A stretch of DNA of 64,000 nucleotides. Source: Antedon bifida (taxonomy: Eukaryota; Echinodermata; Crinoidea; Comatulida; Antedonidae). The stretch spans positions 27,261,820 through 27,325,819 of the forward strand of contig OY727096.1 in NCBI GenBank assembly GCA_963402885.1, written 5' to 3'. This document shows, piece by piece, positions 7,201 through 32,964 of the stretch; position 1 is the stretch's first letter; each line of letters opens with the position of its first letter. Made by a program: the position numbers and the translations under genes. The notes below the pieces were generated by a model. That model saw only the letters and a list, made by a program, of their open reading frames with translations. It searched no databases and had not been told where the DNA came from.

Positions 7201-10200
7201 AATTATCTAATTGAAATTTGTTTACGTTCGTTTACTGTAAAGAAAAAAATTAAATGTTTGTTCTACTTCTTTTGTTTCATATACATGTACTAGCCTATTG
7301 AAAATCAGACCAGTACTAGCCTATTGAAAATCAGACCAGTACTGGCCTATTAAAAATCAGACCAGTACTAGCCTATTGAAAATCAGACCAGTACTAGCCT
7401 ATTGAAAATCAGACCAGTACTGGCCTATTAAAAATCAGATCAGTACTAGCCTATTGAAAATCAGACCAGTACTAGCTATTGAAAATCAAACCAGTGCTAG
7501 CCCAAACTAGGCCAATAACTTTAGGCTAGTTTCCAGTTTCCAACCCACAAAATAGTCAATCTTTGTGTGATTGTTTGTGTTTGAGTGTGGGCTACTAACA
7601 TCTGTCAAACTATCCCAATTGACATTTGGGCTAGTGGAAAATTGATTGTAATCTGTTTCCTACGAATGTACATTTAAACAATTGTAAACCATCCGACTGA
7701 GTCAGTTCTGCCGATGACACTTTCGCAACCTTTTCTTAGATCTCAATGAGTCATCATAGGAAAGCTCAGCTTGGATACGATAGACTTCCTTTCACATTTT
7801 CTATGAGTAATTTTATGAAAGTTAACAGTCAATTTACAATTCAAATTAGTCATTTCATTTTCTGTATGAGGCAATATGAGAAAGATTGCATTGTTCTGAA
7901 GCCTTGTCTACACTATCAAACTTTATGTGACAATAACAAAAATGTGATGTGCCCATATATGTCATATCACTTCCATATTTGGGCCTAACACACTTTTTTT
8001 GTCAAACTAGTATATGTTTGCTTTCTTTGACATTGACTTGATATTAAAACTCTGGAGTTGTGCAAAGCTTAAAAAAATGTTTCCAAAATCACATAAATTA
8101 GTAAATAAATAAAGTACGTAATTAGTCTAAAAACATGTTTAATTGAAAATCAGATTTCTAAAATTGCCTCCTTCCCAGAAGGTCACATTTTTACCACTGT
8201 GAAACAAACTAAGCTACATATTCATTAAATGTCATAAATTTTTAAAACAAAGTGGGTGAGACGATCGATAAGTCGGATCTTCAGGTTTCATACTTTTCTC
8301 TTCCATTTGTATTATCTCATGTTTGTTAATTGTTGTTAGAAATAAACATAAAATGGTATAGCAAAAAAAGGTGCCTGTACTGTAGTTTAGAAGGAGATTC
8401 GAAAGTACAAAATGTTCGCCACTATTTTGATGTTCAAATACAGTAGTATATTCCTATCAATTATAAAATTGTAATAATTCTGAATTTTTGTGTTCTTAGC
8501 CTTCGTGGAGGCATTTAACAGACGCTAGGAATGGTACTATGATTTCATACCGAAAATCTGATCGCAAAGTAAATGAAACGTAAGTGGTTGATTATAATTA
8601 TGTGTCCTCTGAAACGTGATGTTTACTTGTTTTCGAAGCCATTTTTTAAAACTAATAAATTCGCATCCTAAAGTTTGATACTTCAGAAACTTTCATAATT
8701 AAGCCCTTTATTTAAAGTGAATTATACTATAGGTAGATACTGTAGGTAAATGTCTATTTTTTCAAGGGGGTATTAATGTCTTCCTTTCGTGTCAATGGCC
8801 TTTGTAAAGCTCTGTCTACACTATCAAACTTTGTGACAAAAAAATGTGATGTGTCCTTATATGTTAATTGTTATGTTACGTATCACTACCATATTTGACA
8901 ACATCACACTTTTGTTGTCAAACTTGTTTGATAGTGTAGACAGAGCTTTAGTTTATCCAAGTAAGTAATCCATCATTATTGTTCTTTATTTATATAGGCA
9001 TACATATTGTGCGCATGGTAATCACCTTCCAAAAGATTTGAAATACGAAAGAGGAGAGGAAGAAGACTACCATCATCATCATCACCATTACACCAATGAA
9101 AATGAAGGTACAAACAAAAAAGATTATAAATATATGTATATTGACAATCTTGTATGTTGTCATATGCTTCAGTTGCTGCCATACAAGTATGTGTAATAAG
9201 TATTTGTATTGCATCATTCCATACAGTATGTTCTTATTTGTACTTATATAGCCATCACTTTGACATGTGTTCTTGTCGTACTTATATGGTCAGCTTACAT
9301 ATGTAATTAAACGTACTTATAATATTGCATTGTTGTGGCATTCATATCAATTTCAATTCAATTTTATTTAATCACGGAGGCCAAGATTAAAAACTCATGA
9401 TTGTTCTTCCCTGGGGTTGTGCACATTCACAAAATACAATTTTAACATTTAACATTACTTATAAGGTCATCGCTGATCCAAAATTGTACTTATACATACA
9501 TAATATATGGCCATCGTTGTTGGCCATATACGTTCTTATACATACATATGGCATTCACAATGGTATATATGTACTTGTATGGCCATCATGGTTGCATGTA
9601 CTGGTATAACTGAATATTATTATTTACTATTTAGATGACCATTCAAGAACAAGGAGGTCACTCCGACCCCCTCCAAGGCATGTCTGCCCCTTACTCTTAA
9701 CAGCAGATAACATATTCTATGTCAACATGGGACAGAGTAGTATGTCACAGACAATTAATTACTTAGTAAGTATAAAATTTGGTACAAATCTGAATGTCTG
9801 ATTAAGTCAATGTCAGTCTGGACAGTTTCTAGAAGGTCGTGTTTCAGAATAAATACAGAATAATAAATGAATAAATTTCTAATGATGAATGAATGAATAA
9901 AGTAATGGAATAATAATGCTAAATAATTAAGTTGTATCAAAAATGTTTGTCAAATCATATTAATACCAATATACCATTAGCTAGCTTATGTTTTGGGATG
10001 GTAGACAAAGATTACAGTCTGTGAAGAGTGTAACATGCATTCCGTCCATATTACAAAGCTGTTACAGTCTGTTAATTCACATTCTTTATCTTCTAATGTC
10101 CCCGAACGAAAGCTATTAAATCACATTCTTTATCTTCTAATTTTCCGCGAACAAAAGCTATTATGAGATTGGAGAGTGACTGGAAATGTGAACTAAAATT

Positions 10201-13200
10201 TACAATCTTTTTTCAACGACAGATCTCCTTAGTGGACCGAGTCAATTTGATCTATAAACGAACAAACTGGGATGGCAGAAACTATGGCGGATTCTACTTT
10301 GAAGTTGCGGAGGTAAAATGCATAAAATTATAATGCTTGCTAGTGATGATACATTACGACCTCCCTAGAATCCTGATAATCGCAAGAGCTTCCCGATATT
10401 TTGCATGATCTCCTTCTAATGGTAGCAATTTCTCCTGATTGTTTTTGATAAAGTATTAAAAATATCCCATGATGTACTTAGAGTATGAAGTCAAAGACTT
10501 GTTCTACCTCCAGAATCACAGATTAAGTGGGCCACAGACCAATACCTACGAAGCTGCTCTGTATACAGACCCTTTTACCAAATAACTCGCTCATAATATT
10601 ATTGTAATATGGACATTTTTAAAAAATAAAACAGGAATGCATACTTGCAGTAAACTTTTGGCTAGATTTTTCATTTATTCTTACATAATTAAATAATAAA
10701 TAATATCTTTTTCACAGGTTACTGTTCATAAAACAAAGTTACACAAAAATCATTACAATACAGATCCACCAAATGGTGAAGTGTGGGAAGTACAGGATCT
10801 GTTGGAGGTAATCTTATGTCAAAACCCTTCATGCATAACATAATACAAAAATCTAATACCATATTAGGATGTGAATTATCAGGTGATAAGTAATTTGATG
10901 GTGATTGGCCGTTAAGAAAGCTCACGACCAATCTCAATTACTGGATCATAACAGATTTTTAAAACTAAAGCTCTGTCTACACTATCAAACTTTATGTGAA
11001 AAAAAAGTGATGTGCCCATATATGGACACGATGATGTCATATCACTACCATATTTGGGCACATCACACTTTTTTTTAAAAATTCTAGTTCAATGGTGTAG
11101 ACAGAGCTTAAGGCAATTGCAGAACATGCCAGTTTGAATTTCTCATTGAGGTAAAGATGAGTTATGGCACTCACAATATCAATTACTGTAATCTTTTACA
11201 TGCACAGTCATATTATTGAGAATGCGTACCAAATTTCTAACATTGATATTTAATATAACATTGAAGTTATTAGCCATTAAGGGACCATGTTAAAATTATT
11301 CTACTGCAGTTACTGCAGTAAACTACATTTTGTTATTCTTGTGCAATTATTTAAAAAGCTGTTTAGGAGTCTTAATCATACACATTTTTTATTGCATTGA
11401 CTGCCTCATAAACTTCTACATTGAAACAAACTATAATCATTATTTAATGCAGTAAAATAATTTTCACATGATTCATAATTGTTTAGTACATTGTAAACTG
11501 AGTGAGAAATTATGTTGTAATTCTATTTACTTGCAGATGTACAGCAAACAAAATCACATGAAATTTTGCTTGGCTCACTTATTTACATACCAAGACTTCT
11601 CGAACGGCGTACTTGGCTTGGCATACATAGGAACACAGAGAACTAACGCTGTTGGTGGCATCTGTACACAGTGTAAGAACAACTTTTGCATACTAACAAC
11701 TATACAATATATTTCAATGCAAGGTCTATGTCTAATATTTACATACTTTTCAATTTTTTATGATTATAGCATACCCATCTTCAAGCGGAGAATTATATCT
11801 TAATACTGGATTAACAACCACAATAAATTGGGGGCGCCGGGTACTCACAGACGAAGCTGAACTGGTTACAGCTCATGGTAAATACATTTACTGTATCCTT
11901 AGTGTTTAATCAACTGCTACTTATTAGACAGTAGCATTTATTTGATAGTGACACTTATTTGACTGTAGCACTTATTCAACTGCAACACTTATTTGACAGT
12001 AGCACTTATTTGACACTAGCACTTATTTGACATTCGCCGTTGGTGAACTGCAGCACTTTCTCAACAATAGTGCTTAATGTTTTACATTAGGACTTAATCA
12101 AATGCAGCACTTATTCGACACTAGTACTTATTTGACCTTGATAGTCAACTGAACTGCAGTACTTATTCAACATTAGTGCTTAATATTTGACACCAGCACT
12201 TAATCAACTGCAGCACTTATTCAACTGTAGCGCTTATTCAACTGCAGGGATTATTCAACTGCATTACTTATTCAATTGCAGCACTTATTCGACAGAGCTT
12301 ATTTGACAGTAGTACTTATTAAACTGCAACACTTATTCAACTGTAGCGCTTATTCAACTGTAGCGCTTATTCAACTGCAGGGATTATTCAACTGCATTAC
12401 TTATTTAACTGCAGCACTTATTCGACAGAGCTTATTTGACAGTAGCACTTATTAAACTGCAACACTTATTCAACTGTGGTTGTTATTCATGTGGTGGCTA
12501 TTGATCACTTGTATCCTTATGTAAGAAATATATCTTTATTTTATGCTACAGAATTGGGACATAATTTTGGAAGTGAGCATGACCCGACATCTAGCAACAA
12601 TGAATGCTCCCCCGGTGATGTAGATGGTAACTTTCTTATGTATCCTGCATCTGTCAGCGGCAAGAAGGTTAATCATGATGTAAGTTTATCTTATTCTGAG
12701 GGTATGTTTATGTTTTATTTACTCCACCAAAAAGAAACAGGGCCAGAAGGATTACCAGAAAATGATAGCCATCTCCTTTCCCCATCAACCCTGTTCAATT
12801 TCAATTTTTTCCTAACCTTTTCCTTTTATTTTTTTTATTTCTACGCAGCAATTTTCCGCATGCAGCAAACGTATGATCAATCAAGTATTGAGAGCTAAAT
12901 CTTCCCGTTGCTTTAGAGGTACAAGTCTTGTTATTCCGTTACTATCATAGAAAGTAAATGCATCTCCTTGAAATACGGGGTGCCATATGCAGCAATCGTC
13001 TAGTTAAAATGATAATGTAATTTATACATAGCATTTTGCAATTACAATTTGATTTTAAAATGGCGCACCATACTTGAATTTTCCTCCTAGTACTTTGATA
13101 CTGAATATGTTGTTTTATGGCTACACAGGGCTTTAGTGGTGATATGAGATTCAATGGATGATACAGCACACTAGACCCTTGTAAATAAATTAATTCATTC

Positions 13201-16200
13201 TTGTACAGTGCCATTCCAATGACAGTTCATTTTTCATGGCACTAAAATGTGTAACTATTTCCAACCACTAGTATGCATGAATTATAATATTTGTCATGAT
13301 AATAATAAATTATATATTCATTTTTATATCAGAACCACAAGGTTCAAATGTGTGTGGTAATTACCGGGTTGATGCAAATGAAGAATGTGATGCTGGGTTA
13401 CTTGCCCAAGGGGAGAGTGATCCATGCTGCCACTTGAAATGCAAACTGAAGCCTAAAAAGCAATGCAGGTTAGTGTATCTACTGCCCTCTATTAATTGGA
13501 GTGGAAATAATTGAAAGGGCCCTCTATTGTTTGGATACAAATTTATTATATTCCTGATTTTAATTTTGTAATTTTAGAGAACCTAAAATACAATAATATT
13601 TTAATAAAAAAAACAAATACAAAATATATTTTTTAAAAAAATAGGATAAAGTAATACTAATAGTGAAATAATTAATTTTTGGTAATTTTTATACGTTTAT
13701 AATAAGGTCTTATATTAGTCAACCTTACATTTTTTCCACTACAATTCTCAAACTCTGGTATAAACAGTAATTAGCTGAGCTGCACAATAAGTGGTTCGCC
13801 TAGTCCCCCTTGCCCAATAAATGAAAAGGAATAAATGTTAATATACTCTCCAGTGATAAGAACTCACCGTGTTGTGAAAGATGCCAATTTGCCCCAAAAA
13901 CAAAGGCGTGCCGTGAAACAGAGTATGCAGATACCGGTTGTAAGCAAGACGCATTCTGTACGGGCAGAAGTGCTAACTGCCCTAAGGCTGTACCCAAGAG
14001 AGATGACACTGTTTGTATAGAAAAGTAAGAAGAATTTTTCCTTTTTTAATTAGAATTTTAAACGTAAATAATGGATCTCATTCAATTGTATTGTGTAGAT
14101 TTTCTTTTTTTATTCATGTTTGATGTTGTCTGTTTCTTCTTGTTCTGTACATTTTTACCTGTTATATTGTTATAAATCAGCTTCAGCTGGATGGACCACC
14201 CTCATAAAATATTGTTGAAATAAATAAATAAATAAATTTATATATAAATCCAAAGGCAAATTACTGAAAAAATGACAATGCTGTGGGTATCAGTGGCTGA
14301 TCTCAATGGAGATACAAAAAAAAAAAGCTAAATCAAAACGATAAAGTAAAACAGCCAGAAAAGTTAGCAGAGCTTTCGGGCAACACTAGCCCTTCATCAG
14401 TGCAAGTGAAGGAATTTGGATAACGTCATATATAATAAATTTATATATATAATCAAGCAATGAATTTGTGGAAGATAATTTAAATTTATTTGTATTTATT
14501 AGTTGTTTGTTTACTAGATAATAGTAATAATTTATTATATATTTTATTTGATCAAAAAACTCTACAAATTTGATTAACAACTTAATCAAAATTACATATA
14601 GGAAATAAATATATAAACAAATTTCAGTTATTTGAAATTACTTGATGATATCTAAAAGACTATATTAGTCAAAATTTGCATTAAAATCTCAATTCCACCC
14701 TATACAATACTGTGCAATTTATATGTGTAAATCGGAATTGTTTTTTTTTTCTTATTGTTAAAGTGGAAAGTGTAGAAATGGTATATGTATGCCATTTTGT
14801 GAAGTGAATGGTATGATTTCCTGTATATGTACAGATTGTGAGTATATTTAAATAAATTAAACTTGAAACCTAAATTTCTATTAGTATGTAAGAAAGGCCA
14901 TTGTTCACATGCATAATCAGTGTTTGCTTCATGATTGGCCATACAAACTTTTAAAGTTAACTGGAAACTCTCCCAAAACCAGACTTTTCTTGAGGTCACA
15001 AAAAACCCAAAATCTTTGTTACCATTTAAAAAAAAAAGTATGCATCAGAAAAAACTATTTAGCGAGCGAACCGTAATACGTACAGTAGCCATAAAATCGG
15101 CAAGGGTTCAAGGTTCACTGGCTCTGGAATCTTCTCGGATAAGGACTATAAACTGTAGGTCCAGTGTACACATCTGGCTGATGTGCACTTTAAAGAACCT
15201 AGTACATCTTTCGATACAAATATGGGGTTACCCCTGGGTACTATTACACACACAGCCACTTATCTAGGGAGCTGCACATCCTTCAGATGACAGTTAGTCT
15301 CCCGCTTTTGTGAATTTTTGCAAATTAAATACTGTGTGTGTTTATCCAACAGCTTCCGAGTCTTGTTATTGGTGCTGTAAAAGATTTGAAACAGATGCCT
15401 GTACATTATTTTACAATGTCTCAATAAAATCACCACAGCGCGTCCCTGATGGGCGACCGTGTAACCATGGAGTTTGCAACCAAGTAAGTTATACGTTTTA
15501 TGTATTCTAAAATGAGTATATACTGTATATTGTATTAAAGTACCCATATTTTTATCATTTCTATTATTTAATATCTTTTTACACCGCTTATTATTGTATT
15601 ACTTTCACAACAGTGCAAAGCATAATGAAGATTGTAAAATACAGTGGAGCTCCTATTAAGGGGACAACTTCAGGACCCAAAAAAAAATGTCCCCTTAATA
15701 GAGGTGTCCCCTCAATAAAGGTTGGCCATTGTGTTAAAACATATACAGTATTTACATAAAAACTCATTCTTTTCACCTTAATGAGTCCCCTTAATAGGGG
15801 TGTCGCAATAGTAAGGGTGTCCCTGAATAGGGGTGTCCCCTAATAGGGGTGTTCCCTTATAGGGGTGTCACATTAGTTGGGGTGTCCCTGAATATGGGTG
15901 TTCCCTTAATAGGGGTGTCCCAAAAAACGGGTTCCATACACTTTTTACATTAAATAGGTCATTATTTTTATGACGACCAACCTTCAAGGGCCCCTTATAT
16001 TAAGGAGACACTGTTGTTGGGTCCTGAAGGTGTCCCCCTCCCCCTTATAGAAGTTCTATATTTCAAATATAATACATGTATGCTTTTCTTTTAGGGTGTA
16101 TGTGAATCTCAAACTCAAGATTTAATTGAAAGGTTTTTTGATGTATTTGAAGGGATCACAATAAGCAAATTAGGTTAGTGTGACACTGTGGCATGGTACT

Positions 16201-17568
16201 GGTCTTTCAATGTAGGAGCTTAGGTTCAATTCTTCTCCAGTACCAGTTTCATGTCTGAAAATTAACATCTATCTAATAAATGCTCACAATGTTAGACCTG
16301 TCATATCTGTATTTGACACGTAGCTTGCCATATGTCTTTCCATCCCAGTTCCATGGTATATTCCTACCTCTGGCCTAGTTCCAAAATTTGTCATAAGAAC
16401 AATTCCACTCTCAAAGCATTGTCCCTTACTAAACTGTGAATGAAATTATTTTTTTCATTTTTTTTTCTTACAGGTCGAATAATAAAAGACAATATTGTCG
16501 GAGCAACTATTATCATATCTTTAATTGTTTGGGTACCATGTAGCTGCCTCATTCATTATGTAGTAAGTTGAACTTTTTTCTTTTGGTTGTATACATTGTT
16601 TTTACACAAATTTGTTTTGGAAAGCGAGCATTTTTCCACCATTGGGTATTTTGTACATTAGTACTAGCAAGCTTTCATTAATTAATGTTTACCTTGTCTA
16701 CACTATCAAACTTTATGTGACAAATTTGGACATGATGATGTCATAGCACTACCATACTTGGGTATATCACTACCATATTTGGACACATCAAACCTTTTTT
16801 GTCAAACTAGTATGGTAGTGTAAACTGAGCTTAAGGCTTTCCAATCAAATACGCCACATTTTATTCAAATTGTTGAGCATAATTATGGTTGTTTAATTTC
16901 TATTAATTTTTTTTTTTAGGATAAAAAACGAGAAAAAGAATTACATGAAGATAGTGATTGGTTCAGTCCAAATGTAAGTTATTTTCTAACAATAATATTT
17001 ATGTTAAATACATCAAAATCGTTTTGTAAAACAGAATGAATAAATTAAGTGCTCAGAAACTGAGTGAAATGTGAGAGCAGCATGCATGCTATTTAATATT
17101 TTGGCCCATATATTCAATATATGAATGAATGAATGAATGTGTATGGCTTTTTTGGTATGAATAGAACCTATTAAGGGGACACTTTTTTTTGGGGTCCCAA
17201 ATGTGTCCCCTTAATAGGAGTGTCCCAAAGGATGTGTTTCACTGTATTTACAAATAATAATTTAGGAAGATTACTTGATAGAGGAGAGAGATAATTAGTG
17301 TAGTATACCTAAAAGGTTATGTTGGTAACGCAACGTACACCACAATGCAGATAGATTCAGACACTCGCATCTCAGAATTCACATCGTCAACCTTCCTTAC
17401 ATACAGCAATCTGTCAACAACAGATATGTGTGATTACATTAATTCATTTAATGATATAATAAAAATATTTCTTTTCAACAGAATAAAGAATTGATGAGGC
17501 CAGGGGACAAGAACAAAGTTCGAAGGTACAAGCCACCATCCTATCTAGAGAAGGAGACTGTTCTCTAG
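4279..17568 (+). CDS. ADAM17: ADAM17 (TACE) metalloprotease, complete, 21 coding exons
   Basis: Membrane sheddase that releases ectodomains at the cell surface. Exons: 4279-4348, 5237-5366, 5818-5951, 7071-7162, 8500-8579, 8998-9107, 9635-9765, 10223-10312, 10718-10807, 11537-11672, 11770-11877, 12552-12679, 12849-12918, 13333-13468, 13854-14024, 14764-14837, 15353-15483, 16095-16173, 16474-16562, 16920-16973, 17482-17568. They sum to 2190 nt (729 aa) with every phase consistent. Visible parts: signal peptide 1-23; prodomain with a candidate cysteine switch at C173; natural six-His run 194-199; furin-type site RTRR ending at R213; zinc site [11 protein letters not shown] (H390, H394, H400, catalytic E391); Met-turn M420; Cys-rich disintegrin and membrane-proximal regions; transmembrane segment about 660-683; short tail with PPSY (719-722) ending ETVL. 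The membrane-proximal and juxtamembrane VDKK blocks are specific to ADAM17 rather than ADAM10. The tail is much shorter than the roughly 130 residues in vertebrates. Confidence 0.95.
6236..6760 (-). mobile_element. Dispersed repeat, right arm of the inverted pair
   Basis: Reverse-complement copy of the repeat at 1-345, in ADAM17 intron 3, with extra internal sequence. It ends at GGGGAAACTA (6760), mirroring base 1. Confidence 0.75.
6786..6905. mobile_element. Partial copy of the GATGTATTGTCCCC-end family
   Basis: Contains AAATGACATATTCAAAGTTTGA and GGGGACAATATACCTTTAA, the right end of the family seen complete at 34364. Confidence 0.5.
7288..7496 (+). repeat. 26-bp minisatellite in ADAM17 intron 4
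   Basis: About eight units of TACTAGCCTATTGAAAATCA plus GACCAG, with a variant unit (TACTGGCCTATTAAAAATCA) at every third position in the first part, which suggests expansion in higher-order blocks. Confidence 0.9.
7901..8012. mobile_element. Foldback MITE, GCTCTGTCTACAC family, copy 2 (right end lost)
   Basis: Left end CCTTGTCTACACTATCAAACTT and the interior match; the right terminus is degraded after TCAAACTAGTAT. In ADAM17 intron 4. Confidence 0.7.
8809..8946. mobile_element. Foldback MITE, GCTCTGTCTACAC family, copy 3
   Basis: Both termini intact in ADAM17 intron 5, about 50 bp before exon 6. Flanking bases are TAA and TTA. Confidence 0.8.
9220..9610 (+). repeat. Degenerate tandem repeat around TGGCCATCA
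   Basis: Loosely repeated GTACTTATATGGCCATCA-like phrases in ADAM17 intron 6. The middle (9350-9400) carries a fragment resembling a reversed LINE tail. Confidence 0.4.
10970..11107. mobile_element. Foldback MITE, GCTCTGTCTACAC family, copy 4
   Basis: Both termini intact in ADAM17 intron 9. If the ends are AGCTCTG and CAGAGCT, the flanks are a TAA duplication on each side. Confidence 0.85.
11277..11470. mobile_element. CTGCAGTAACTGCAGT-family repeat
   Basis: Begins TTAAGGGACCATGTTAAAAT followed by CTGCAGTTACTGCAGT and contains AACTTCTACATTGAAACAAAC. It lies directly upstream of ADAM17 exon 10. Confidence 0.6.
11890..12476 (+). repeat. Degenerate minisatellite in ADAM17 intron 11
   Basis: About 30 degenerate units of GCACTTATTCAACTGCA or GCACTTATTTGACAGTA (17-20 bp). 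The block is immediately followed by the exon carrying the zinc-binding motif. Confidence 0.85.
14149..14240 (+). mobile_element. LINE-like 3-prime tail
   Basis: Ends GTTGAAATAAATAAATAAAT after GGACCACCCTCATAAAATAT, a pattern typical of LINE 3-prime ends with A-rich short repeats. No reverse transcriptase nearby. Confidence 0.35.
14250..14400 (+). repeat. Dispersed repeat ending CCCTTCATCAGTGC
   Basis: GGCAAATTACTGAAAAAATG, CTCAATGGAGATACAAA and GCAGAGCTTTCGGGCAACAC. The first half recurs at 17894-17965. Confidence 0.6.
15640..16050 (+). repeat. CCCTTAATAGGGGTGTCC minisatellite-like block
   Basis: More than ten degenerate units of CCCTTAATAGGGGTGTCC in ADAM17 intron 17; the flanks CTATTAAGGGGACA and CCTTATATTAAGGAGACA are inverted, so the block can fold. 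A short related piece lies at 17165-17235. Confidence 0.8.
16186..16260 (+). repeat. tRNA-derived SINE-like head
   Basis: A-box-like TGGCATGGTACTGG and B-box-like AGGTTCAATTC about 35 bp apart; the acceptor stem does not pair, so it is not a functional tRNA. Confidence 0.35.
16693..16830. mobile_element. Foldback MITE, GCTCTGTCTACAC family, copy 5
   Basis: Degraded copy in ADAM17 intron 19; the CTTGTCTACACTATCAAACT left end and GTAGTGTAAACTGAGC right end are recognisable. Confidence 0.7.
17482..17568 (+). CDS. ADAM17: ADAM17 short-tail terminal exon with PPxY and PDZ ligand
   Basis: Last coding exon of the 729-aa form. It follows a TTTTCAACAG acceptor in phase 0 and ends with TAG at 17566-17568. 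It encodes residues 702-729, including PPSY (719-722), a WW-domain ligand type, and a C-terminal ETVL that fits the class I PDZ consensus (T at -2, hydrophobic at 0). Vertebrate ADAM17 also ends with an E-T-x-x PDZ-binding tail, so the end looks conserved. A GTACAAG donor at 17526 inside the exon, in phase 2, would allow splicing to the downstream tail exons instead. Confidence 0.8.
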   Translation, partial: NKELMRPGDKNKVRRYKPPSYLEKETVL

Positions 17569-17893
17569 CTAACTGCATGGGTTTATGTGAGACCAACGGT
17601 ATGTCTAGCCCACACACTTATGAAGTTAAAATACTGTTATCGACCTTTCAAATTATGAGAATTTAAAATTCAAGATTCTGTCTGCTAATATTGTAATTAC
17701 AGTTTTATCAAATGTTGATAATGTTTAATGTCAACGGGCAGCAGACGGTAAAGGTGATTCTTACTGTTATGTGTCAAAAGCTTTATTTTAATGGTTGCCA
17801 TGCATTTGTTCGTATCATGCCCATTTTTATTTGTTGCCAGAAATAATTTTATTTGACATTTTTAAGAAAAACAAACAAATTTAAATATCTAAA

Positions 17894-17965
17894 GGCAAAT
17901 TACTGAAAAAATGACAATAATGTCCGTGGCTGAATCTCAATGGAGATACAAATAAAACCCAATCA
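17894..17965 (+). repeat. Second copy of the dispersed repeat at 14250
   Basis: Shares GGCAAATTACTGAAAAAATG, GTGGCTGAATCTCAATGGAG and ATACAAA with 14256-14320. Confidence 0.6.
17951..17956 (+). terminator. Candidate polyadenylation signal for short ADAM17 transcript
   Basis: AATAAA hexamer about 380 nt downstream of the short-isoform stop codon. It lies within a dispersed repeat that also occurs near 14256, so it could be fortuitous. Confidence 0.3.
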
Positions 17966-20044
17966 AAACAATAATATTTAAATATATATAATGTTGGTCT
18001 ACTGTTTGCTTATTCCTGGGCTAAAGCCTGTCAAGCAAATAGTATGCCTATTATTTCAGGCACCACTGGCTGCCCATAACTATATTTGAATAACTTTTTT
18101 ATAAATCGATTATTTTAAACAAGTTTTATTTAAAAAAGGCTGACAATGCCTTGCTATTAAAACAGCACTAAACAGGGCATGCCATTATTATTATGTGCAG
18201 TACAGTATATTGCTGATTTCAAAGTGTGTGTTTGCTAGATATACCGTTAGCTTTTGTGTGTCTCTTGCGCATGTCCTCTACACAACCTCTGCAGATCCTG
18301 TTTCTTTTTAGGCCTGTTCAGACTTGCAGATACTGGAGCCTACATAGGGAACCATACAACTTGTTTAATGCAGGGAGGGTAGGGAGCCTACATGTAAGGT
18401 ACCTAGCCCACATTCAGGCTACCTAACTTACCTAAAAGCCAAGGCAGAGTACCTAGCCTATGCCATATAATAACATGAGCCTGAGTTAACTTTAATCATA
18501 TCTTAACTCAAGCCAGGACAGTGTCTCAAGTCTGAACGTAGCCAAAAGTGTCATCATCACCCTGTGTGTGTATTGTGTTGATGTGATGCATGGTAGTTTA
18601 CAATGTTGAATGTGATTGTATACAATTTAACTAATACCTTATGCCATGTCTTTTTCATTTTAAAGAAATCGGCATGTATGCATGTTGGGTTTCAGTGTAA
18701 ATATACAATGTAAGAATTATTGCCTAGGCCACAGCTACTCCCCCATGTTCATATGGAAAATAGAATTTCTTATGAACAAAATTTTCTTTGATAACTACCC
18801 CCTGAAATATATTTCCCGGACAACACAATTAACCCTGGACAATTCCCTCCTACTGTAGGTCAACTATACTCCCAGGACAACTATGAGGATACGATAATAT
18901 TATTATTGTCATTTAAACGACATGGTAAAAATGAAATTTAAAGTGAATTTAAACATACAATACAAACAATGCTGCAATGAAATACAAGTACAAAATATGA
19001 AAACAAATTCTTTAATTTTCCAAATTTAAAATAATTTTAATATACTGTAGTGCTGTATATTATGCTAATTAGTACTACAAATTGCCATTGTCCACAAATA
19101 CATTATGTGCATTTCATTGCAAAGCTGCTATGAAATAAAAATTATCTTTATGAAAGACAGCAATTAATTAAATTTTACTGTTAGATAAATTTACAATATG
19201 GTTTACAATATTGTATTTACCAGATAAAGATCAAACTTTGAACTAATCAAAGTGAGAAAATCTGAACTTGTAAACAAAATGACTTTGCTGATTGATATGC
19301 ATAGGCCTAGTCTAGCTTCTAGACAAATTTATAAAATGAAAACGTTTTGCACACATGGCGTGTCATACGTATACGGGATGTAGAATCGAGTTACAAAAAA
19401 AATGTTAGGGCTTTCACATTTAAGTTCAAATATTATTGGATAGAAAACATATCTTTTTTAATTGTGTGAAAGAGCAGTGTGATATTGAGGTATATAAGAA
19501 AATAAGATGGTGCTCTCCTTTTATAAAAATAATATAAAAAATATTTATACTTTTTTACACTTTTTATATACTTTTATATAAATTAAAACATCAATATTTA
19601 TTATTGCAATTTTGTTGGGCCAACTACAGATCTGCAGAGGTTAGAAATATTTGTTTTTTTTATAAGTTATAACATTCGAAAACCATGGTAAACAATTTTT
19701 TTTTAAATAAATAAAATTTTAATGAGAGTGATTACATTAGGAAGCTAACAGGGTGTCGTGGGACTATTCCATTAGGTTTGTAGGGTACAATCATTTTTTT
19801 CAATCTGTATTTTTTATACAAGCCAAAGGTTTAGAAATCATGAATATTAATTGTAGAATCATTTTTTTTTAATTAAAAGTTCAATGCAAACTAAATCCTT
19901 GTAGATAAATATATAATTCCATTCCATTTTTTTATTCGGTCCAGTGTTTAACTTTCATTTGCTAAGTTATTAGAAAAATTAGGTTATTGTACTGTAAATA
20001 AGTTAATGTCAATTAAATAGGTTGTGTCAACTGTTTTCTGCAAG

Positions 20045-20125
20045 CCAGTTCTGTGGCTGAATGGTATAGAATTCAGCTTGTGAAACTTGAGGTCTAAGTT
20101 CGAAACCCATCAACTCTCTTGCCCT
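20045..20125 (+). repeat. tRNA-derived SINE-like head
   Basis: A-box-like TGGCTGAATGGTAT and B-box-like AAGTTCGAAACCC at normal spacing, followed by a body containing GGGGTTTCCCCTTAGTTG. No matching acceptor stem. Confidence 0.5.
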
Positions 20126-20486
20126 TTATCAGGGGTTTCCCCTTAGTTGAGTCGTCCAAAAGGAGGAGTTGGAATGTATAATCACATTTTGAGTTTGTCC
20201 CTCTAAAACTATCGACTTCTTTGTTATGTGTACCAAATTATTTTTCAAAATTTGTAAATATTGTACAAAACATTATATTTATTATGTGACAATCAATAAG
20301 TATTTCATCTTCTTAAAATAGTTGAATTAATAATATTAGTAATTTATCATTTATTGACTTTTATAATAAATTTTATATTTCATAATTTTTTTAATACAGT
20401 AATTACCACAATAGAAAGCTAACAGTAATATTATTTAAAATAGGCGCAAGATTTGAGTTCTCTTGGCCACTGCAGTGTAAAAGTAT

Positions 20487-20716
20487 TAGGAACCATGTCA
20501 AAATAATTCTACTGCAGTAACTTCATTTTGTTTACCTTTAACCTGTTTATTAAATTATTTAGCTAGCTTTTTGTGGTAATCATACTATTTATTATTATTC
20601 TCTACCTTGAAACAGACTAAAACCATACATTATTGCAGTAAAAAATGTAGTTAATGCAGTAACTGCAGTAAAAGAATTTAATGTGAGGATGATGGTAAAA
20701 TAACACGATCCCTTAA
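20487..20716. mobile_element. CTGCAGTAACTGCAGT-family repeat
   Basis: Left end TTAGGAACCATGTCAAAATA and right end CGATCCCTTAATAA are inverted relatives; internal CTGCAGTAA blocks lie at both ends. Confidence 0.6.
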
Positions 20717-21022
20717 TAAATTTGTTACAGTTGTGAGATAGCATTTAAATTAAATTTGAGTTGATTTGATAGTCTTGTTGCAGTAATGATTATGCAAAAA
20801 TAGATTGGATATAAATGTGGTAGAGTCCATTGTTCCCATAGGGGTGCATATTTGGGGCTAACACTAAGACAGAATATTATACCTACCATTGTTTATTTGA
20901 TATGATATGAATATACGATAGGTTTTTATGTTGTTTTTTAGTATCAGCCTGCCTTCTAAATAATATAATTTTCCGTCTTTTTATTAAAATCAATTAATTT
21001 AATTTTTTCTGTTTTGTTTTAG

Positions 21023-24000
21023 TCATAGACCTCCAGCATATCAAGATGTCAAACACGCTAGTTACAAACATGGTATATAAAATTATTGATCATTAACTTC
21101 ATACATCCATCCATCATTGACAAAAACGTTCCGATCATCTGCACATGCGTACCAAATATTGACAAAAACTTTCCGATCATCTGCACATGCGTACCAAACA
21201 TTGACAAAAACTTTCCGATCATCTACACATGCGTACCAAACATTGACAAAAACTTTCCGATCATCTGCACATGCGTACCAAACATTGACAAAAACTTTCC
21301 GATCATCTGCACATGCGTACCAAACATTGACAAAAACTTTCCGATCATCTACACATGCGTACCAAACATTGACAAAAACGTTCCGATCATCTGCACATGC
21401 GTACCAAACATTGACAAAAACTTTCCGATCATATGCACATGCGCAGAATTAACGTACATTCAGCATTTAAAGCTATATTTACACTTGTGCCATTTCACAT
21501 TCAATTCTTTATATAATTTCTCGAGACAAGTGTGAATATAGCTTACATATAATGCTTCACTTTCTAGTGCGAACATTGTATAATAACAATATCATATCGC
21601 AACAATCATCATAATAATATATCTATATTGCTTAAATCGACATTATTAATCAAATATTAATCAGCTTATTACTTTTGAATATTGCTATTTCAGACGCAAA
21701 GTCAATGCTTCCGTCACGTAACATATTCAAAGTAGAGGAATGAAAATCATGACTAATTTATTTGTTTACCTAAAAAAGTATAAGCTATCTGAACGCGGGT
21801 TGTCCGTACTTATTTCTACTGAGCAAAAGAGTACGGATTAAAATACCGTATTTTTAAAGAACGATGTTTTCTTGCCAACAGAAACGGATCCATGTATTAT
21901 AGAACCAGTTTTAAAAACCCAAATTCCTGTCTCGATCGTAAAATACCGGTTATAACGCGATCTTTTTTAAGTACCGGTTTATAAAGAAACCCGTTCTTTT
22001 GTGATAGAATCGGGCCCTAAGTCTCTACCATTTCGCGATTCTTCAAACGTAACCCCCGATGACTCTTTAGATAGAAAGAATTGTTGATGTACCGTACTTA
22101 TACAATGATTTGAAATATGTTGCAACAAAATGTGTATAGACCCTATTTTTATACATTGTGTTACTATTGAAATACAATAATAACTTCATTATATTCAATT
22201 TACATTGTAACACTACATCCGGTAACTCTGAGCTTGATCAATTCATTGGCTTGTTTACCATAAGCTTTATTTGATATCTAATTTTTTGGTGACATTTTAC
22301 ACTTTTCGAATAACACAAAGAAAAAAGTATTTTCCTGTGTAAAATTAATTGTTCTTTTGTGTGATACTTTTTTCATAAGAATGCCTCAAATTTATATAAG
22401 TCACAGTTAATTGTGGTGAATTTCATATCTTTTATAATGCTCTGTCTACACTATCAAACTAGTTTGACAAAAAAAGCTTGATGTGCCCAAATATGGGCAC
22501 ATTATTTTTTTTGTCACATAAAGTTTGATAGTGTAGACAGAGCGTTGCATTACAAAAAGTCCTGTAGCGCCAGTGTTAGGAAGGGGATATTTCACACGAC
22601 GATAAAAAATAAAACTTTTTATACCCAGAGCTACTCTTTAGTAAATATTGAATTAATTTATTCGTTTTTAATCACATGCACATCAATTATTTCAATTCTT
22701 AGATAAATATTGCTTAATTTTAGTGACGCTAAACTTACTCAAAATAGGGAAGTTGTGACGTAACTGAAACCAAAAATTGTTCGTCGAAAAATGTGGTTGA
22801 AACCAATCAATCGTAGTTTTAATTAAAGATAAGATTTTAATTTTTTGTTTTCGATCCAATTTTGGTAAAAGTCAAAAACTATTATATGTGCCATTTTAAA
22901 ATGGCATATTCAACTTTAAAAAAATAATTCTTAATTCGTTTAGGGGGACAATATTATTTACCAATAAATGTTATATTTTAAGTATAGGCTTCTCATGACT
23001 CCAATATTTTAACTTTTTTCTCTCTCATTCATGTTTCATACGGGTTAGTAAAGGGGAAAATAGATTAAATTCGATGTTCCGAGTCTTCCATATTTGGGAA
23101 TATAACAAAAAACATACAAATTAATTATTGAATTGTGGCTAAAAATTACCCGGAGATAATGATATTAATAAACTTGTTACGTTGTATATCGAACTTCTGA
23201 TGCTAACAGTTCAACCAACCAATTTTCCGGAGTTTGAACTCTCTGGGAATTCCAGTTTTATTCAAAATGTAAAACTATAATTGTTTTACATTTTACACTC
23301 TGGTAAGAACCTTATTTTTTTCTTAAATAAACGTATTAATATATGCATGGTTATTGCTTGCACATGTTTGTATCGTATTTTTTTAATAATTTAAACATTT
23401 GCTTTGTTTTATTGCATAACATATCAATCGTTTTATCTATGTTAAAAGAAAGTATCATGGAGCTATAATTGTATAGCTCCATGAAATAAACATCTCAATA
23501 TCGTAAAATAATCTGATTGGAGGCTCCATCAGAAAGAGAACAAAAACCGACGCGCGCGTTGAGTTTCTGATGATTTAGTAGTCTGTTTGCACGCGCGCGT
23601 ATTAAAGTGACAACACAAAATAGTATAATACTTATATTCTTTCTTTAGGTCACAGGTCATAGCACAGGAAGCAGAGCAAGATTCCAATCTGTAAGTTTGA
23701 AGGGAGATGTTTCATTTCCTTGATTGGGTGTCGCCATCATCATATTCCCATTACTACTTGCATGTGCAGATTTTACATCAGTGTCGTCATCACATGTGCT
23801 ATGTGCTGCATGTGAAGTTTTCAAATCATTTTTACTGTCTAGTCTGGCAAATTCACAATATTATCTTTATTTTCCTTTCATCGTGCATGTTATTTCATCA
23901 ATGTGCACAATATCATTATTTCCTCGAATCAAAAGTGACGATAATTTGAGATGAGTGGGGAGAATTGGAAATGTTTAATATTATCTGATGACATACAAGA

Positions 24001-25578
24001 CCATCTCCGATTTATTTCATTCCACTGCAAACTATAGCATCGTGTAAACTTTTAAATTACAGCTTTGAAGTTAAGCGGTTTTCTGAATTTCATACCATTT
24101 TCACCGAAATTACTGTAGGCCTATTTAAAATGTGGATACTGACTGTATGCATAGGCCTACCTCTTCCAAGTTTTTTTCTCTTTGAATTGTTATCTATTCT
24201 AATGGAATGAAATGCCTCTAAGCCAATAATTGTTTGCATGTCATCATTGTTATTTTTAAATATTGTGGAGGTGTGCGAATGTGTATAAGGCAGGCTTTGT
24301 ACACGTATACGTATACAAACTGAACTACCCTAAACATTCAATAAATACAATCAAATTTTAATATACAATGGTTTTGTTTCTCAAAGTTTCTTCAACTGGA
24401 TATCAACTGTGTGCAATTATAAAGTACCTAATAATATAGAACTGTATGTTTTGAAAATAAACTCTGAAAGGCATACAAGGATACAATCGTGACGGTCGTC
24501 CTAAATCCACCACTACACCACCCGCTTCCCCTACAAACTGTTATTAAAAGAGTTTTATACGAAACCTATTTTTAGGTGACTTACTACATCGCAACCAGCT
24601 GTAAGTGGCGGCAGGCGGGCGGGCGAAAAAGATAAAATAGTTAATTGGTCCTTTTTTCCAATCACAATGCACATTTTAAGATTTGTGCTATTATAAAAAA
24701 TTTATATAAAGTAAACCGTAACATTATAGAAGTAAACTATAATAAAATAATAGGTATTTTATTGGGGAAATAGGAAGGGTGCTTAAAATGGTGACGACGA
24801 CTTTCTAAAAATCCCCTTTTGAATTTACCGGCTTGACGCCCACACATGTATTACTGCATGCCTGCTTCGAATTGATATTTTTTACTACTAGTGCTATGTA
24901 TTATATAAATAGTGCTTGGTTTCATGCATTGTGAAGGTTGCCAATCATTTCAACTTTGTTACCGGATACGTGTATTTTTTACTTCTATCCCATTGTTGTT
25001 TTCTTTTATTTTTTAGGATTAGAATTTGCTTTAGTCTGGCACGTTTCTTTAAATAAATATACACGCTTTTGTGACTTTGTACGGATTTTTCAGCAACTAA
25101 AATGTCACTATTTCGTCATATTTTTATCATTAGTCATCATAACTTGTTTGTTTTCAAAACCACTGTTAGCGTCCTTATTTTTGTGTAAAAAAGAAAATTA
25201 TTTAAATGTCAAGGCGACAAGTCTTTCCGTGACAGTTATAAAACATTTACATTCAACATCTAGACTTACACCCCCACCCCCACCACTTTTTTTAGAATAA
25301 ATGCAACACCCTGGACGTTTATTTGAATAAATACGATATAATTTTGACAGAGGGTGCCTCTCCCAGCGCTCTTTCAAATTCTGCAGCATCACATCGTCGA
25401 ATTAATCGCTGTGCTTTTTGGGGTTTTTTTTGTGACGTTGTCAAAACGTTTGCTTTTTATACTATGTAGCTTTCTAACATGGCTGAAGGGCAGTGAAGAT
25501 GGAAGAGAGAAGTCCAGCTCTTCGCCGCAGGATAGGATGCACAGTTACGGCACCTATCTCGGAGATGCAGATCTATAG
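21023..25578 (+). CDS. ADAM17: Candidate alternative cytoplasmic-tail exons of ADAM17
   Basis: Three spliceable segments downstream of the short stop. Splicing from the internal donor after 17525 (phase 2) to 21023-21072 (acceptor TTGTTTTAG, donor GTATAT) gives a tail with PPAY. This joins 23656-23690 (acceptor CACAG, perfect GTAAGT donor; a competing AG at 23648 would bring a stop in this phase). It then joins 25489-25578, which encodes a Ser-rich segment ending YLGDADL with TAG at 25576-25578. The frame stays open throughout and predicts a 773-aa protein. PPAY falls at residues 719-722, the same positions as PPSY in the short form. An AATAAA at 26269 could end this transcript. Weak points: the acceptor before 25489 has a poor pyrimidine tract, and the path relies on consensus sites alone. 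Confidence 0.45.
21116..21446 (+). repeat. 42-bp minisatellite, eight units
   Basis: Units start at 21116 and every 42 bp after; nearly identical apart from scattered single-base changes. The unit contains no stop in two forward frames, so it reads as 14-residue repeats (IDKNFPIICTCVPN or TKTFRSSAHAYQTL). No splice sites or homology support coding; it starts 43 bp after the candidate tail exon at 21023-21072. Confidence 0.95.
22439..22543. mobile_element. Foldback MITE, GCTCTGTCTACAC family, copy 6 (short hairpin)
   Basis: Compact 105-bp copy lacking the middle; the two arms pair almost completely around CCCAAATATGGGC. Confidence 0.85.
22840..22965. mobile_element. Partial copy of the GATGTATTGTCCCC-end family
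   Basis: Contains GATCCAATTTTGGTAAAAGT, AATGGCATATTCAAC and AGGGGGACAATATTA, matching the family interior and right end. Confidence 0.5.
23456..23483. repeat. CATGGAG...CTCCATG hairpin
   Basis: Near-perfect 28-bp palindrome CATGGAGCTATA / TATAGCTCCATG. Confidence 0.7.
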
Positions 25579-26268
25579 ACAAACATACTATGTTATCATA
25601 GGGACTGTTTGGGAGGAGTTGTCCGTAAAGGAGACTGACTATATAATTATGATTCGTAAATTGGAGCTTGACGTAACAAAACAAAGCATAGTTATGTTGC
25701 ATAAATGTTACTATTTTTAGAGTGTTATACATTTTATACCTCTTGATGATTAAAATATACTGTAAATAGAAAGTTAAGATCATGCAGATGTACGTACTTT
25801 CTCCTTAGTTAAGTATAAACAGAAAATGATGTTTAATACTAATAGTATGAATGGAAATGATATCGCCAGCCTACCGAATGTTTGAAATTCTGTAGTACTA
25901 CATGTGTACATTTTTAATGAAATGGAGAAAAAATAATAGTTTCTTCCAAATGCCATGCCGTGTAGGCCTAAGGAAATCTATAAAGTTTGTTTTTGTAACA
26001 TGATGAATTTTGTTATGTGCTGTGATCCCTGAGCACACAGGGTTGTCGTTGTTAATGTTATGGAGGACATTTTTGTAACGTTTTAGAAAAGTACTCCATG
26101 CTCGAAATAGTACTGTATCGATAGCTTGACTGCACTTAGACTAAGTAAGAATACAAAAGATTAGGAATAAGTATATCATTAAGGACCATAAAAGAAATGT
26201 TGACCTGTGAAATATGTAATTTATAAATATGAATTTCGAATGAATGACATTAAGTAATCTATTACGAT

Positions 26269-26274
26269 AATAAA
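26269..26274 (+). terminator. Candidate polyadenylation signal for long ADAM17 transcript
   Basis: AATAAA hexamer about 690 nt downstream of the putative long-isoform stop at 25578, just upstream of the Harbinger-like relic. The position is reasonable for a 3-prime UTR end. Confidence 0.3.
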
Positions 26275-26727
26275 ACGAAAAACAAAAGATAAGACATCTA
26301 TATATCTATGTACCTATAACGTATTATTCATTTCTTTTATCATTTGCTTATAAATACATAGAAATTATGTTGCTCTTAGGCCCTGTTTCTGCTGCCAAGA
26401 AAATACTGTATTTTATACGGTATTTTTTGAATACCGTATTTATACCGTATTTTGTTGGCAGCAGAAACTGCGCTCATAAAAAAAATACCGTATTTTGTAT
26501 ACCGTATTTTCTCCACAAAATTTGTGGATAAAATACGGTATTTACAAATTTATACCGTATTTTTTGTACCCTTTTCTGCTGCAAATAAAAAATACCGTAT
26601 TTTGTTTGACCTACGACATGAGGTCAACATCGTCTTTTTATTTTCTGTTGCTGTTAGCTGTATAGATATATTCGGCGAAAATGTGGAGCGAAAGACGTCA
26701 CAGTATTTACTATATAAATCTGTGTGG

Positions 26728-26790
26728 GGAAGGAGGGTGTGGGGAAGGAGGGTGTGGGGAAGGAGGGTGTGGGGAAGGAGGGGGAGGGGA
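26728..26790 (+). repeat. GGGGAAGGAGGGTGT short tandem array
   Basis: About four units of a 15-bp G-rich repeat inside the Harbinger-like relic, just upstream of its ORF. The runs of G could allow quadruplex formation. Confidence 0.8.
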
Positions 26791-26796
26791 AGCTAA

Positions 26797-27030
26797 ATGT
26801 CCGGCCAACTAAAAGGTAATAAAAGGGACAACCACATTTATAAAGACATTTCTAAAAAAATAAAGCAGGAGTACGGAATAGACTTGTCTCCAAAGCACGT
26901 AAACTCAAAGCTAAGAGCCTGCGAAAGCAGTACAACATTGCAAAAGACAATAACTCGGGGAGGAACGAATTTAGTTGTCCCCATTACGATGTTTTCTGTG
27001 CTCTCACAACATCTCTATCACTAGGGCTAG
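26797..27030 (+). pseudogene. Frameshifted Myb/SANT-like DNA-binding ORF of the Harbinger relic
   Basis: The first part (from 26797) encodes IYKDISKKIKQEYGIDLSP and KHVNSKLR, like helices 2-3 of Harbinger Myb/SANT proteins. Near 26928 the family-like reading passes into another frame, with RKQYNIAKDNNSG and then CPHYDVFCAL, so one base appears gained or lost. The N-terminal Trp-rich helix is missing. Not expected to make a functional protein. Confidence 0.55.
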
Positions 27031-27975
27031 CCTGTTGAAAGTGAGGTATTGCGACTTTTAATTATCGACCAAATTAAAATGAATGGCAATTTGGGTAAAA
27101 AGGATGAAATTTAACACGACCACCCAAGAAGTATTGTTAGCAGAAACGGGGTACTAAAAAATACGGTATAAAAAATACCGCATTTTATACCGTATTTTTA
27201 TACCGTATTTTGAGCAGTTGCAGCAGAAACAGGCCCTTAGACAGTTTTACACGATGAAAATTTGCGTGTGTGCACACCACACGATCACTTTTATGTAAAT
27301 TAGTGGCGGAATAACAGGGCATTATCAAATATAACATTTTAAAAATCACGTTTTAAATAACGAAATGCTAATGTAACAGGTATCTCGATGTAATCACTTT
27401 TAATGTCGCCGTTGTACCATCAAAGGTGGTAATACACTGTAAGCCCTATACTAGCTTCATACTCTGCTGCTGTCACACTGAAACTTTGGGCATATGCACA
27501 ACACACAATTCACCTGTATGTAAATGAGCTGTTTCACAAAATAATTAAACAAATTCATTGAATGGACGAAGTCGAGAAGAAAGTAATCTGTAAAGTTTGT
27601 TTTCTTCCAGAACAATGATGGCCTGTACATAACAACACTGATTCAATGGTACCATGCAATGCCACTGGATACTATATCTTGTAAACGTTCGTATTAATAT
27701 CTCCATGCATTCCATACTATTTCTAAATTATCGCGAACGAAAATCGGAATCACAGATATTTTGTCAATTAACTGGAATTAATTTGAACTGTTCAATCAAC
27801 GCATTTCCAGATAAAACAATAATAATAAGTTTTGTTACATCATAGGTTATTTATTTTCGCTATATAAAATGTATATGAGGCCTATACAGGATATCCGACT
27901 AAAGCTAAATATGAAATATAAACAAAAACTTATTCATTTCCTTTTATGGTTTTCATTTCACCTGATCACTATAAA

Positions 27976-30494: not shown

Positions 30495-31937
30495 TCACAC
30501 ATACGTCTTGATATTATGCGGGGAAAGTCTTGACCTACCCTCTTCAATGTCTGACAATGATATGTTGAAGTTTCTTTGTACAGTTACACTTGCCATGCCA
30601 ACTCCATCACTCACCTGACAAGACAAAAGTATATTATTTCGATTGTCATCAACGGGCCTGGCATCTGCATTGTTCTGTTGACTGTCGGGTGATGACACCC
30701 GTGAGGAGATGGTGTCTATGCCATGGTTTTGTGCGATAGGCCTACTGGTGTTCTGTGTGGATGAATTAATATTGCCCCGGTTGTAACGCTTAACTAATAA
30801 ATGCGTAGCCCACACGGCGCAAAATAATACAATCACACAGAGGAGAATAACGATATAAAGTTCATAATTAGCCATTTCATTTGCCCCATCAATGGGCCTA
30901 CTTTTTGCGTTCATAGGGTCTGTTACGTGGGATTTTGTGTGCTGTTTTGTACTTGCGTTTTCTCTAGGGCAGTCATGCTCCAATTCTAAAAAGTCCATTC
31001 CATTTAGACACGTTGGTGGAGTCCATCTAGGATGTAGTTTCATCTTTTTTGACAAGTTTATAACGTCATTTTGGCAGTTACAATCAAATTTATTTTCCGC
31101 TAAATTAAACCTAGTCATTTTAGGCATGAAATCAAGCGCGATTTCAGGAAATTCTGTCAAGTTATTGTTTCTTAAAACAAGACTTTCCAAATCTGGAAGG
31201 TCTTTAAACATTTCACTATGAATGCCTGTAAGCAAATTATCTGATAGATCCAGGTGAGTGATCATTGAACCGTGAAATACATCGTTTGGTAAAGACGACA
31301 ACAGGTTGTTACCAAGATACAGTTTTTTTAACTTTGGAAGATTGTGGAACGTTGAAGCCGGAATGGATTTTAACTTATTGTACGATAAATACATGCTTTC
31401 TAATTCGTTTAAACCTTCGAACGCCTCTTCGTGCAGAACTTCTATGAAGTTTTCATTTAACCTCAAATCGTTCAGGACAGTCAGTTTATGGAACGCCGCC
31501 GGTTTGATTTCAGACAGCACGTTTTCTTCAAGGTAAAGTGTTTTCAAATTAACATATTCCTCGAAATCATCATTTAATTGCTCGATCCTATTTTTTCTTA
31601 GATTTAAAGTTTCAACACCTTCTGTGTTACATCGTGGAATTTCAGAAAATTGGAGACTTATACAATCTACTGTATGGTGCTGACCATCCGTTTGTGCGCA
31701 CTGTCTACATTCTGTGCTGATTCCACTAGCTGTACATGTTATAGGGTTGGTGCGTTTGTCCTCACTTGAACAGGACACAGCACTGACCGACAGAAAAATG
31801 GTTGAATAATGATATAAAAACAGCATCAGTATGTGTACTAATTGTTTTTGCGAAATATCTATAAACAAAATCATTTTGAAAGCCGTAAAAAGATCGCCAC
31901 TCCACCTGTTTTCTTCAAATGTTCCTTCTATTTTCAA
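30495..31937 (-). CDS. Single-exon leucine-rich-repeat transmembrane protein
   Basis: Uninterrupted 480-aa reading frame. A hydrophobic N-terminus (about 33-52) is probably a signal sequence; Met22 is an alternative start that would make it more conventional. Then a Cys-containing N-terminal cap (77-103), about eight leucine-rich repeats (108-280) of LxxLxLxxNxL type, and a C-terminal cap (285-323) with the typical DCNC pattern and later cysteines. One transmembrane helix (about 360-381) follows, then a roughly 98-residue cytoplasmic tail rich in Asn and Ser. N-glycosylation motifs include NLT at 259. The C-terminus KTYV fits a class I PDZ ligand (T at -2, V at 0). The layout matches LRR adhesion or guidance receptors; no TIR, immunoglobulin or GPCR module is present, so it is not a Toll-like receptor. 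Ligand and ortholog unknown. It converges on ADAM17 and diverges from SH3BP5. Confidence 0.85.
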   Translation of the reverse strand: MKIEGTFEENRWSGDLFTAFKMILFIDISQKQLVHILMLFLYHYSTIFLSVSAVSCSSEDKRTNPITCTASGISTECRQCAQTDGQHHTVDCISLQFSEIPRCNTEGVETLNLRKNRIEQLNDDFEEYVNLKTLYLEENVLSEIKPAAFHKLTVLNDLRLNENFIEVLHEEAFEGLNELESMYLSYNKLKSIPASTFHNLPKLKKLYLGNNLLSSLPNDVFHGSMITHLDLSDNLLTGIHSEMFKDLPDLESLVLRNNNLTEFPEIALDFMPKMTRFNLAENKFDCNCQNDVINLSKKMKLHPRWTPPTCLNGMDFLELEHDCPRENASTKQHTKSHVTDPMNAKSRPIDGANEMANYELYIVILLCVIVLFCAVWATHLLVKRYNRGNINSSTQNTSRPIAQNHGIDTISSRVSSPDSQQNNADARPVDDNRNNILLSCQVSDGVGMASVTVQRNFNISLSDIEEGRSRLSPHNIKTYV

Positions 31938-32964
31938 AATCGCTCTGATTCTTAAGTATTTAAGTTTACTCTAAACGCTTGTACAAAATTAGTTTCAAAG
32001 TGAATAATCTCTTGTACCGTAACTAACCTGTGTGTAGTTGCTTACTGAATAAACCCGTACTATAGTTACTGTCAAATAAAACATATCAAAACCAAAGTGT
32101 GACGTACCATTATAATTATAGATGAGCTTGACGAAACCTCAGCTATTAATATCTTACTAGAGTTTCAGGGGCTACCCGTTACAGTATTTCCTGAAGTTAT
32201 ATATCCCGGATAATAAGAATTACCCGTATGTACAGATTTCTAAAGTTGTATGTAAGAAGCAATAGAAATTAGAAATTCTAAGGACTGGGAATTCCCCAAT
32301 TATACATGCTCTCTCAACAGTGACTTACCTTTCAATATTGTTTTCTTTGTATATTTAGCTGTTTGTTGTTTATTTAATATTGCATTGTAATACAGATGTT
32401 TATGACCTGTATATACGCAATCGACGAATATTGCTGCTAAATATGAAAACTCTACATGGGGCCTGTACTAATTTGGGCATGCGTGTATTTCCCACGATAA
32501 AAACAATTATGGTTAATTTATAGACCACAAATGATGTTTATGTTTATACATGAGAAAACATAGCATTGTATTTGATTATGCCACCATAATAGTTTACACT
32601 GCAACCTTCCATATACATGGTACAGTGGTACGACGTCATGAAATAGAAACTATAACCTTTTCTGTAACTAGGCTATTGTTTAGGACATTTCGAAATTTCA
32701 GATTTCAGATCTAACGATATAAACACAATGTTCAGATTCACACTTCAATAACAGTTTGAATTGCCTTTTGTCTGAGACAACAATTTAATATAGTTGTCAC
32801 AGCTTTTGTATTGCTTTTTTAAGGTAAATTATCCAGACTAATGATAAGTACACCACATTATTGTATATTCAGCAAGTTAAGCATGGACTAAAAAGAGGTA
32901 TTATTTTAAAACTTAGAGACTACTCCCGGGAGTTCCGAGCTCTCTAAAAGTTGTGTGATAATGA

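Follow-up and report, generated by a model that had tools for sequence, protein, structure and literature searches.

Two predicted tails of an Antedon ADAM17

A 64,000-nucleotide stretch of the Antedon bifida genome (C9:27261820-27325819, contig OY727096.1 of assembly GCA_963402885.1; hereafter the window) contains a whole ADAM17 gene (21 exons, 4279-17568, plus strand, 729 aa in a model rebuilt from sequence), the last exon of which can be read in two ways. We consider the odds slightly better than even (probability about 0.55) that this one gene has two usable tails, which would be made by competition inside the tail exon. This reading is based on open frames, splice-site quality, the register of a PPxY motif, and a motif match at one C-terminus. 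More tentative is the fuller proposal that splicing switches ADAM17 between a form docked by both WW and PDZ domains and a WW-only form, with a diverged duplicate tail taking the place of a 14-residue end in the same register.

Exon 21 read to its stop codon (17482-17568, plus strand, as are all tail features described here) encodes the short tail, and the alignment to ADAM17 in the PDB runs through VRRYKP/VRIIKP. The human last exon also continues past VR without an intron. The short tail carries PPSY at residues 719-722 (17533-17544), seven residues ahead of the C-terminus, and ends in KETVL (the ETVL codons and stop are at 17554-17568, with K at -4). In its excerpted text, PMC10185773 describes the human TACE C-terminus, RQNRVDSKETEC, as a PDZ ligand for PTPN3 with a dissociation constant (KD) of ~30 µM and gives KETPL of p38-gamma alongside it; the K-E-T of human KETEC is kept in KETVL. 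Ends of the form [KR]E[ST]x[VLCIF] precede only 2 of 13,003 stop triplets in the window plus 10 other loci, and the short tail is one of the two. The first AATAAA past the stop in a hexamer scan (17951-17956) is a candidate, non-diagnostic proximal polyadenylation (poly(A)) signal.

Within the same exon, a donor at 17526-17527 (AAG|GTACAA, with the same nine bases as donor 9108) scores 6.5, which places it in the top 2.3% of 3,776 GTs and within the 3.0-10.1 range of the 20 modelled donors of the gene (leave-one-out). It cuts the codon that follows KVR after its second base, and joining to 21023 yields KVRSHRPPAYQDVKHASYKH. The original prediction, an in-frame splice from 17526 to an exon at 21023 reading SHRPPAYQDV, held when the frames were rebuilt: the chain 17525>21023-21072>23656-23690>25489-25578 is open, in frame, and encodes 773 aa. 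The alternative tail exon (21023-21072, SHRPPAYQDVKHASYKH(G)) has its acceptor AG at 21022 (score 7.6, compared with -1.9 to 16.5 for the 20 modelled acceptors) and a further in-frame AG at 21028. Its PPAY (21030-21041) is at residues 719-722 when counted from AG 21022 and at 717-720 from AG 21028, so that with the first AG the claimed coincidence of PPxY at 719-722 in both predicted proteins is reproduced. The DNA of this exon has one match in the genome, itself, and thus does not look like a dispersed repeat.

Downstream of it are a putative 35-nt microexon (23656-23690, HSTGSRARFQS, acceptor 11.25, donor TCT|GTAAGT 3.65) and a putative terminal exon (25489-25578, GSEDGREKSSSSPQDRMHSYGTYLGDADL and a stop codon) with a weak acceptor. 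Codon scores exceed the 95th percentile of the background in all three long-tail exons, the microexon included; for the terminal exon, the score is 0.38 per codon over 29 codons (25489-25575), where the percentile is 0.22. The long-tail end, DADL, does not fit a class 1 PDZ ligand, whereas the short-form KETVL does. Other ends can be derived with a rival AG at 23648 for the microexon (GHRS and stop), with acceptor 25469 for the terminal exon (LSNMAEGQ and stop), without splicing at 21073 (KHGI), or without splicing at 23691 (...GDVSFP). All five ends, DADL included, fall outside PDZ classes 1-3 as the excerpted text of PMC10185773 defines them, and the claim that the short tail alone carries a PDZ-type end therefore survives doubt over the downstream exons.

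Register and likeness of the two tails

The shared register of the two PPxY motifs is unlikely to be due to chance. Background was counted in 194,210 both-strand bases, comprising the window and 10 loci away from the gene (L001-L008, L018, and L026), where PPxY-coding 12-mers occur 18 times (9.3e-5 per base). A PPxY in the same register follows 3 of 9,708 AGs, and two of these three are the two tails themselves; over the 365 AGs of 17569-26000, 0.034 would be expected and one, with a good acceptor, was observed. The register and identity counts are mutually non-independent, and the motif was picked post hoc.

These counts bear on the explanation that splicing at 17526 is constitutive and the long form alone is made, the short form being an unspliced intron start. 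In its favour, donor 17526 equals the other donors of the gene in quality, and the codons of the long tail are more coding-like than those of the read-through. However, a plain intron start is not expected to have a PPxY in the same register, which read-through yields at 2 of 10,909 GTs (17526 being one), nor a KETVL end, given the rarity of such ends ahead of stop codons. We regard a constitutively spliced, long-only gene as quite improbable.

The two tails also resemble each other in sequence. The first 25 bases past both junctions, which include the motif itself, are identical at 15 positions, a value equalled by 1 of 3,289 other AG sites in the window, and the protein match HRPPAY/YKPPSY is equalled by 17 of 2,000 shuffles. 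Both fit the earlier idea that the downstream exon is a duplicated and diverged tail, but shared selection on a single short motif would leave much the same pattern. Inspection of the flanking introns of the two tail stretches by eye showed no similarity.

Points weighing against two tails

Several results weigh against the two-tail reading, some of which concern the tail sequences themselves. AATAAA occurs 21 times in 17500-27500, too frequently for the hexamers to mark a proximal 3' end. At 0.16 per codon, the read-through falls short of the background 95th percentile (0.27) even though its codons were among the training data; 7 of the 21 modelled exons likewise stay under 0.2 per codon. When the short tail was compared with the human tail after VR, KET alone was aligned and 1,460 of 2,000 shuffles were equally good. 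Outside KET the short end thus does not resemble the human tail significantly, and the likeness of KETVL to KETEC is one of C-terminal position alone. Nor did alignments and shuffles reveal a significant likeness between the long tail and the human residues after VR. We dropped its KHASYK as a counterpart of the human KAASFK site, since the best local alignment lies elsewhere (EDGREK/EDGFEK, score 24, equalled by 1,230 of 2,000 shuffles). Searches with the tails in viral and prokaryote contig collections, which are non-animal, found no relative.

Other points concern the exon chain. Among the 136 phase-compatible internal exons of 17526-27000, ranked without using PPxY, the variant starting at 21029 ranks first and 21023-21072 second, and the exon scores of 19.3 and 18.5 are only mildly above simulated tops (null mean 15.5, maximum 19.8 in 40). 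At a cost of 9, the chain 17525>21023>23656>25489 scored 19.8 compared with 36.4 for the best chain; this cost favoured long artificial chains, and the search was therefore rerun with higher costs and simulated controls. At costs of 12, 14, and 16, the best whole-chain scores were equalled by 2, 1, and 0 of 40 simulations, respectively, and the best chains end elsewhere than 25489-25578. An exon at 25489 is absent from the 21 top chains listed (6 at cost 9 and 15 in the rerun). Its acceptor at 25488 scores -1.0, a value that 34% of the AGs in the window match or exceed, which makes the last long-tail exon uncertain. The chain search favoured a terminal exon at 26666-26812, which is partly inside a 15-base tandem repeat and which we disbelieve.

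The modest gene-finding support for the long chain and its weak last acceptor speak for the explanation that the short form alone is made and that the PPxY further downstream belongs to a relic exon or to a stretch that is open by chance, as does the match of the short end to the TACE PDZ ligand. Yet chance is unlikely to bring together good splice sites, coding-like codons, and a PPxY in matching register, and we hold a short-only gene to be unlikely. Somewhat less unlikely is that both tails exist and the long one uses AG 21028 and/or other 3' exons (starting at 25470, or read-through after 21072 or 23690), which would put its PPxY off by two and/or make the last exon at 25489-25578 wrong. 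AG 21028 keeps the frame as well and, at 8.9, slightly outscores AG 21022 (7.6), and the poor acceptor 25488 and the absence of 25489 from the top chains point the same way; on the other side, the count of bases shared by the tails starts at AG 21022, and the 29 codons of the proposed last exon score as coding. This possibility overlaps with the preferred one, and the confidences consequently do not sum to 1.

Proposed mechanism and relation to known systems

If one gene does supply two tails, the short form would arise when donor 17526 is ignored and a proximal poly(A) site is used (composite terminal exon or intronic polyadenylation). Its K-E-T-x-hydrophobic end could then bind a PDZ protein, presumably of the PTPN3 kind, and its PPSY could bind a WW domain of some presumed partner. 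Use of donor 17526 would instead join exon 21 to 21023 and replace the end by ...VRSHRPPAYQDVKHASYKH and the downstream residues, which would keep the position of PPxY and lose the PDZ ligand. Both forms would be membrane-anchored sheddases, and their expression could act as a PDZ switch. In this scheme, we infer the RNA use, the poly(A) choice, the binding partners, and any consequence for how the protease is trafficked or turned over.

What the tail of ADAM17 does is under debate. If the scheme is true, PDZ control of the kind known from mammalian TACE would be a regulated option in the Antedon lineage, and a natural isoform pair that differs in the PDZ end and keeps PPxY would offer a clean test of the effect of PDZ docking on a sheddase. 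Should the short end be homologous to its human counterpart, the presence of a KET PDZ end in an echinoderm would date this ligand to before the vertebrates.

Human ADAM17/TACE is the same gene, with a tail that aligns through VRxx[KR]P and with a C-terminal K-E-T PDZ ligand common to both. The human tail is longer and, in the excerpt of PMC4380453, lacks PPxY, whereas the short form of Antedon has PPxY and a PDZ end within 14 residues. Alternative ADAM tails are already known: the excerpted text of PMC2148059 describes alternative cytoplasmic exons of ADAM15 with at least 13 variants, in which exons 19, 20a/b, and 21a/b mix cytosolic interaction motifs, including potential SH3 motifs. The likeness is that alternative tail exons alter the docking motifs of a sheddase; the proposed difference is that the Antedon gene would retain one motif and use an alternative 3' end to add or remove a PDZ end. 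Transcripts made with an intronic poly(A) signal lack some of the coding sequence (PMC5928244, excerpt), whereas here the start of the intron seems, from its sequence, to encode a selected, motif-bearing tail. As for an alternative last exon, we found two in-frame ends from donor 17526 and adequate splice sites, with a weak last acceptor in the long tail. A search of the open-licence literature (titles and starts of abstracts) found no paper on this ADAM17 tail pair.

ADAM17 gene model and identity

All 20 introns of the model are GT-AG, and the exons join in phase. Exons 1-20 (4279-16973, plus strand) encode a signal-peptide-like start, a prodomain, an RTRR furin-type site, the zinc site, the disintegrin and membrane-proximal domains, and a transmembrane helix, based on the gene model, PDB, and Pfam. 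The 729-aa product matches ADAM17 in the PDB with an E value of 1.7e-155 over residues 27-719, compared with 2.8e-63 for the best ADAM10; this full-length similarity, which exceeds that to ADAM10, identifies the gene as ADAM17. The Pfam reprolysin, disintegrin, and ADAM17_MPD models pass their cut-offs (membrane-proximal domain PF16698: E 2.6e-7, 31.3 bits, cut-off 26.2), the propeptide model is under its cut-off (17.7 vs 23.7 bits), and the protein contains HExxHxxGxxHD, which we take to be the zinc-site motif.

The genome searched was a 315.6 Mb assembly of 27 contigs. Its mitochondrial contig, C27, contains COX1 and, apparently on the opposite strand, an ORF that we take to be ND1; this ORF has AAA, ATA, and AGA at positions where N, I, and S are conserved, a usage that belongs to the echinoderm/flatworm mitochondrial code and points to an echinoderm. 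With the 729-aa protein as query and a cut-off of E <=0.001, the assembly gave 24 matches, of which 21 are inside the ADAM17 gene and three are on contig C1; these three, at 36-47% identity and on two strands, represent one or two further ADAM-like genes. None of the 24 is a retrocopy that would reveal a used tail junction. By eye, loci L018 and L026 (C1:6.31-6.33 Mb) hold one or two ADAM10/17-like metalloprotease genes on opposite strands, which are probably ADAM10-like. A propeptide-family search of the genome turned up 10 additional loci that belong to the broader ADAM/ADAMTS group and lie far off on C9 or on different contigs.

Repeats and neighbouring genes

Introns of ADAM17 and one putative tail intron contain a short inverted-repeat element with ends like AGCTCTGTCTACACTATCAAACT (8805-8950, 10965-11112, and 22436-22546; near 7898 and 16690 by eye). 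The 23-base end of this element has 5,685 + 5,525 exact copies in the genome and 0 when read backwards; because of these copy numbers, it looks like a very abundant miniature inverted-repeat transposable element. A 42-base minisatellite (21115-21443, 7.8 copies, 96% alike) starts 43 bases past the alternative tail exon and is open in at least three frames. Most of the intron ahead of the zinc-site exon is a degenerate 17-base tandem array of the CAGCACTTATTCAACTG type (11919-12477), and CCCTTAATAGGGGTGT-type repeats with inverted arms are located in introns at 15652-16037 and 17167-17218.

Elsewhere in the window, a 491-residue open frame on the minus strand (30498-31970) encodes leucine-rich repeats (LRR_8, E 1.2e-54) and what looks by eye like a transmembrane segment. 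Exons of other genes comprise those of an SH3BP5-like gene (39003-39314, plus strand), a gene with a double-stranded RNA-binding domain (52039-52344, minus strand), and an asparagine synthase gene (57188-57526, minus strand).

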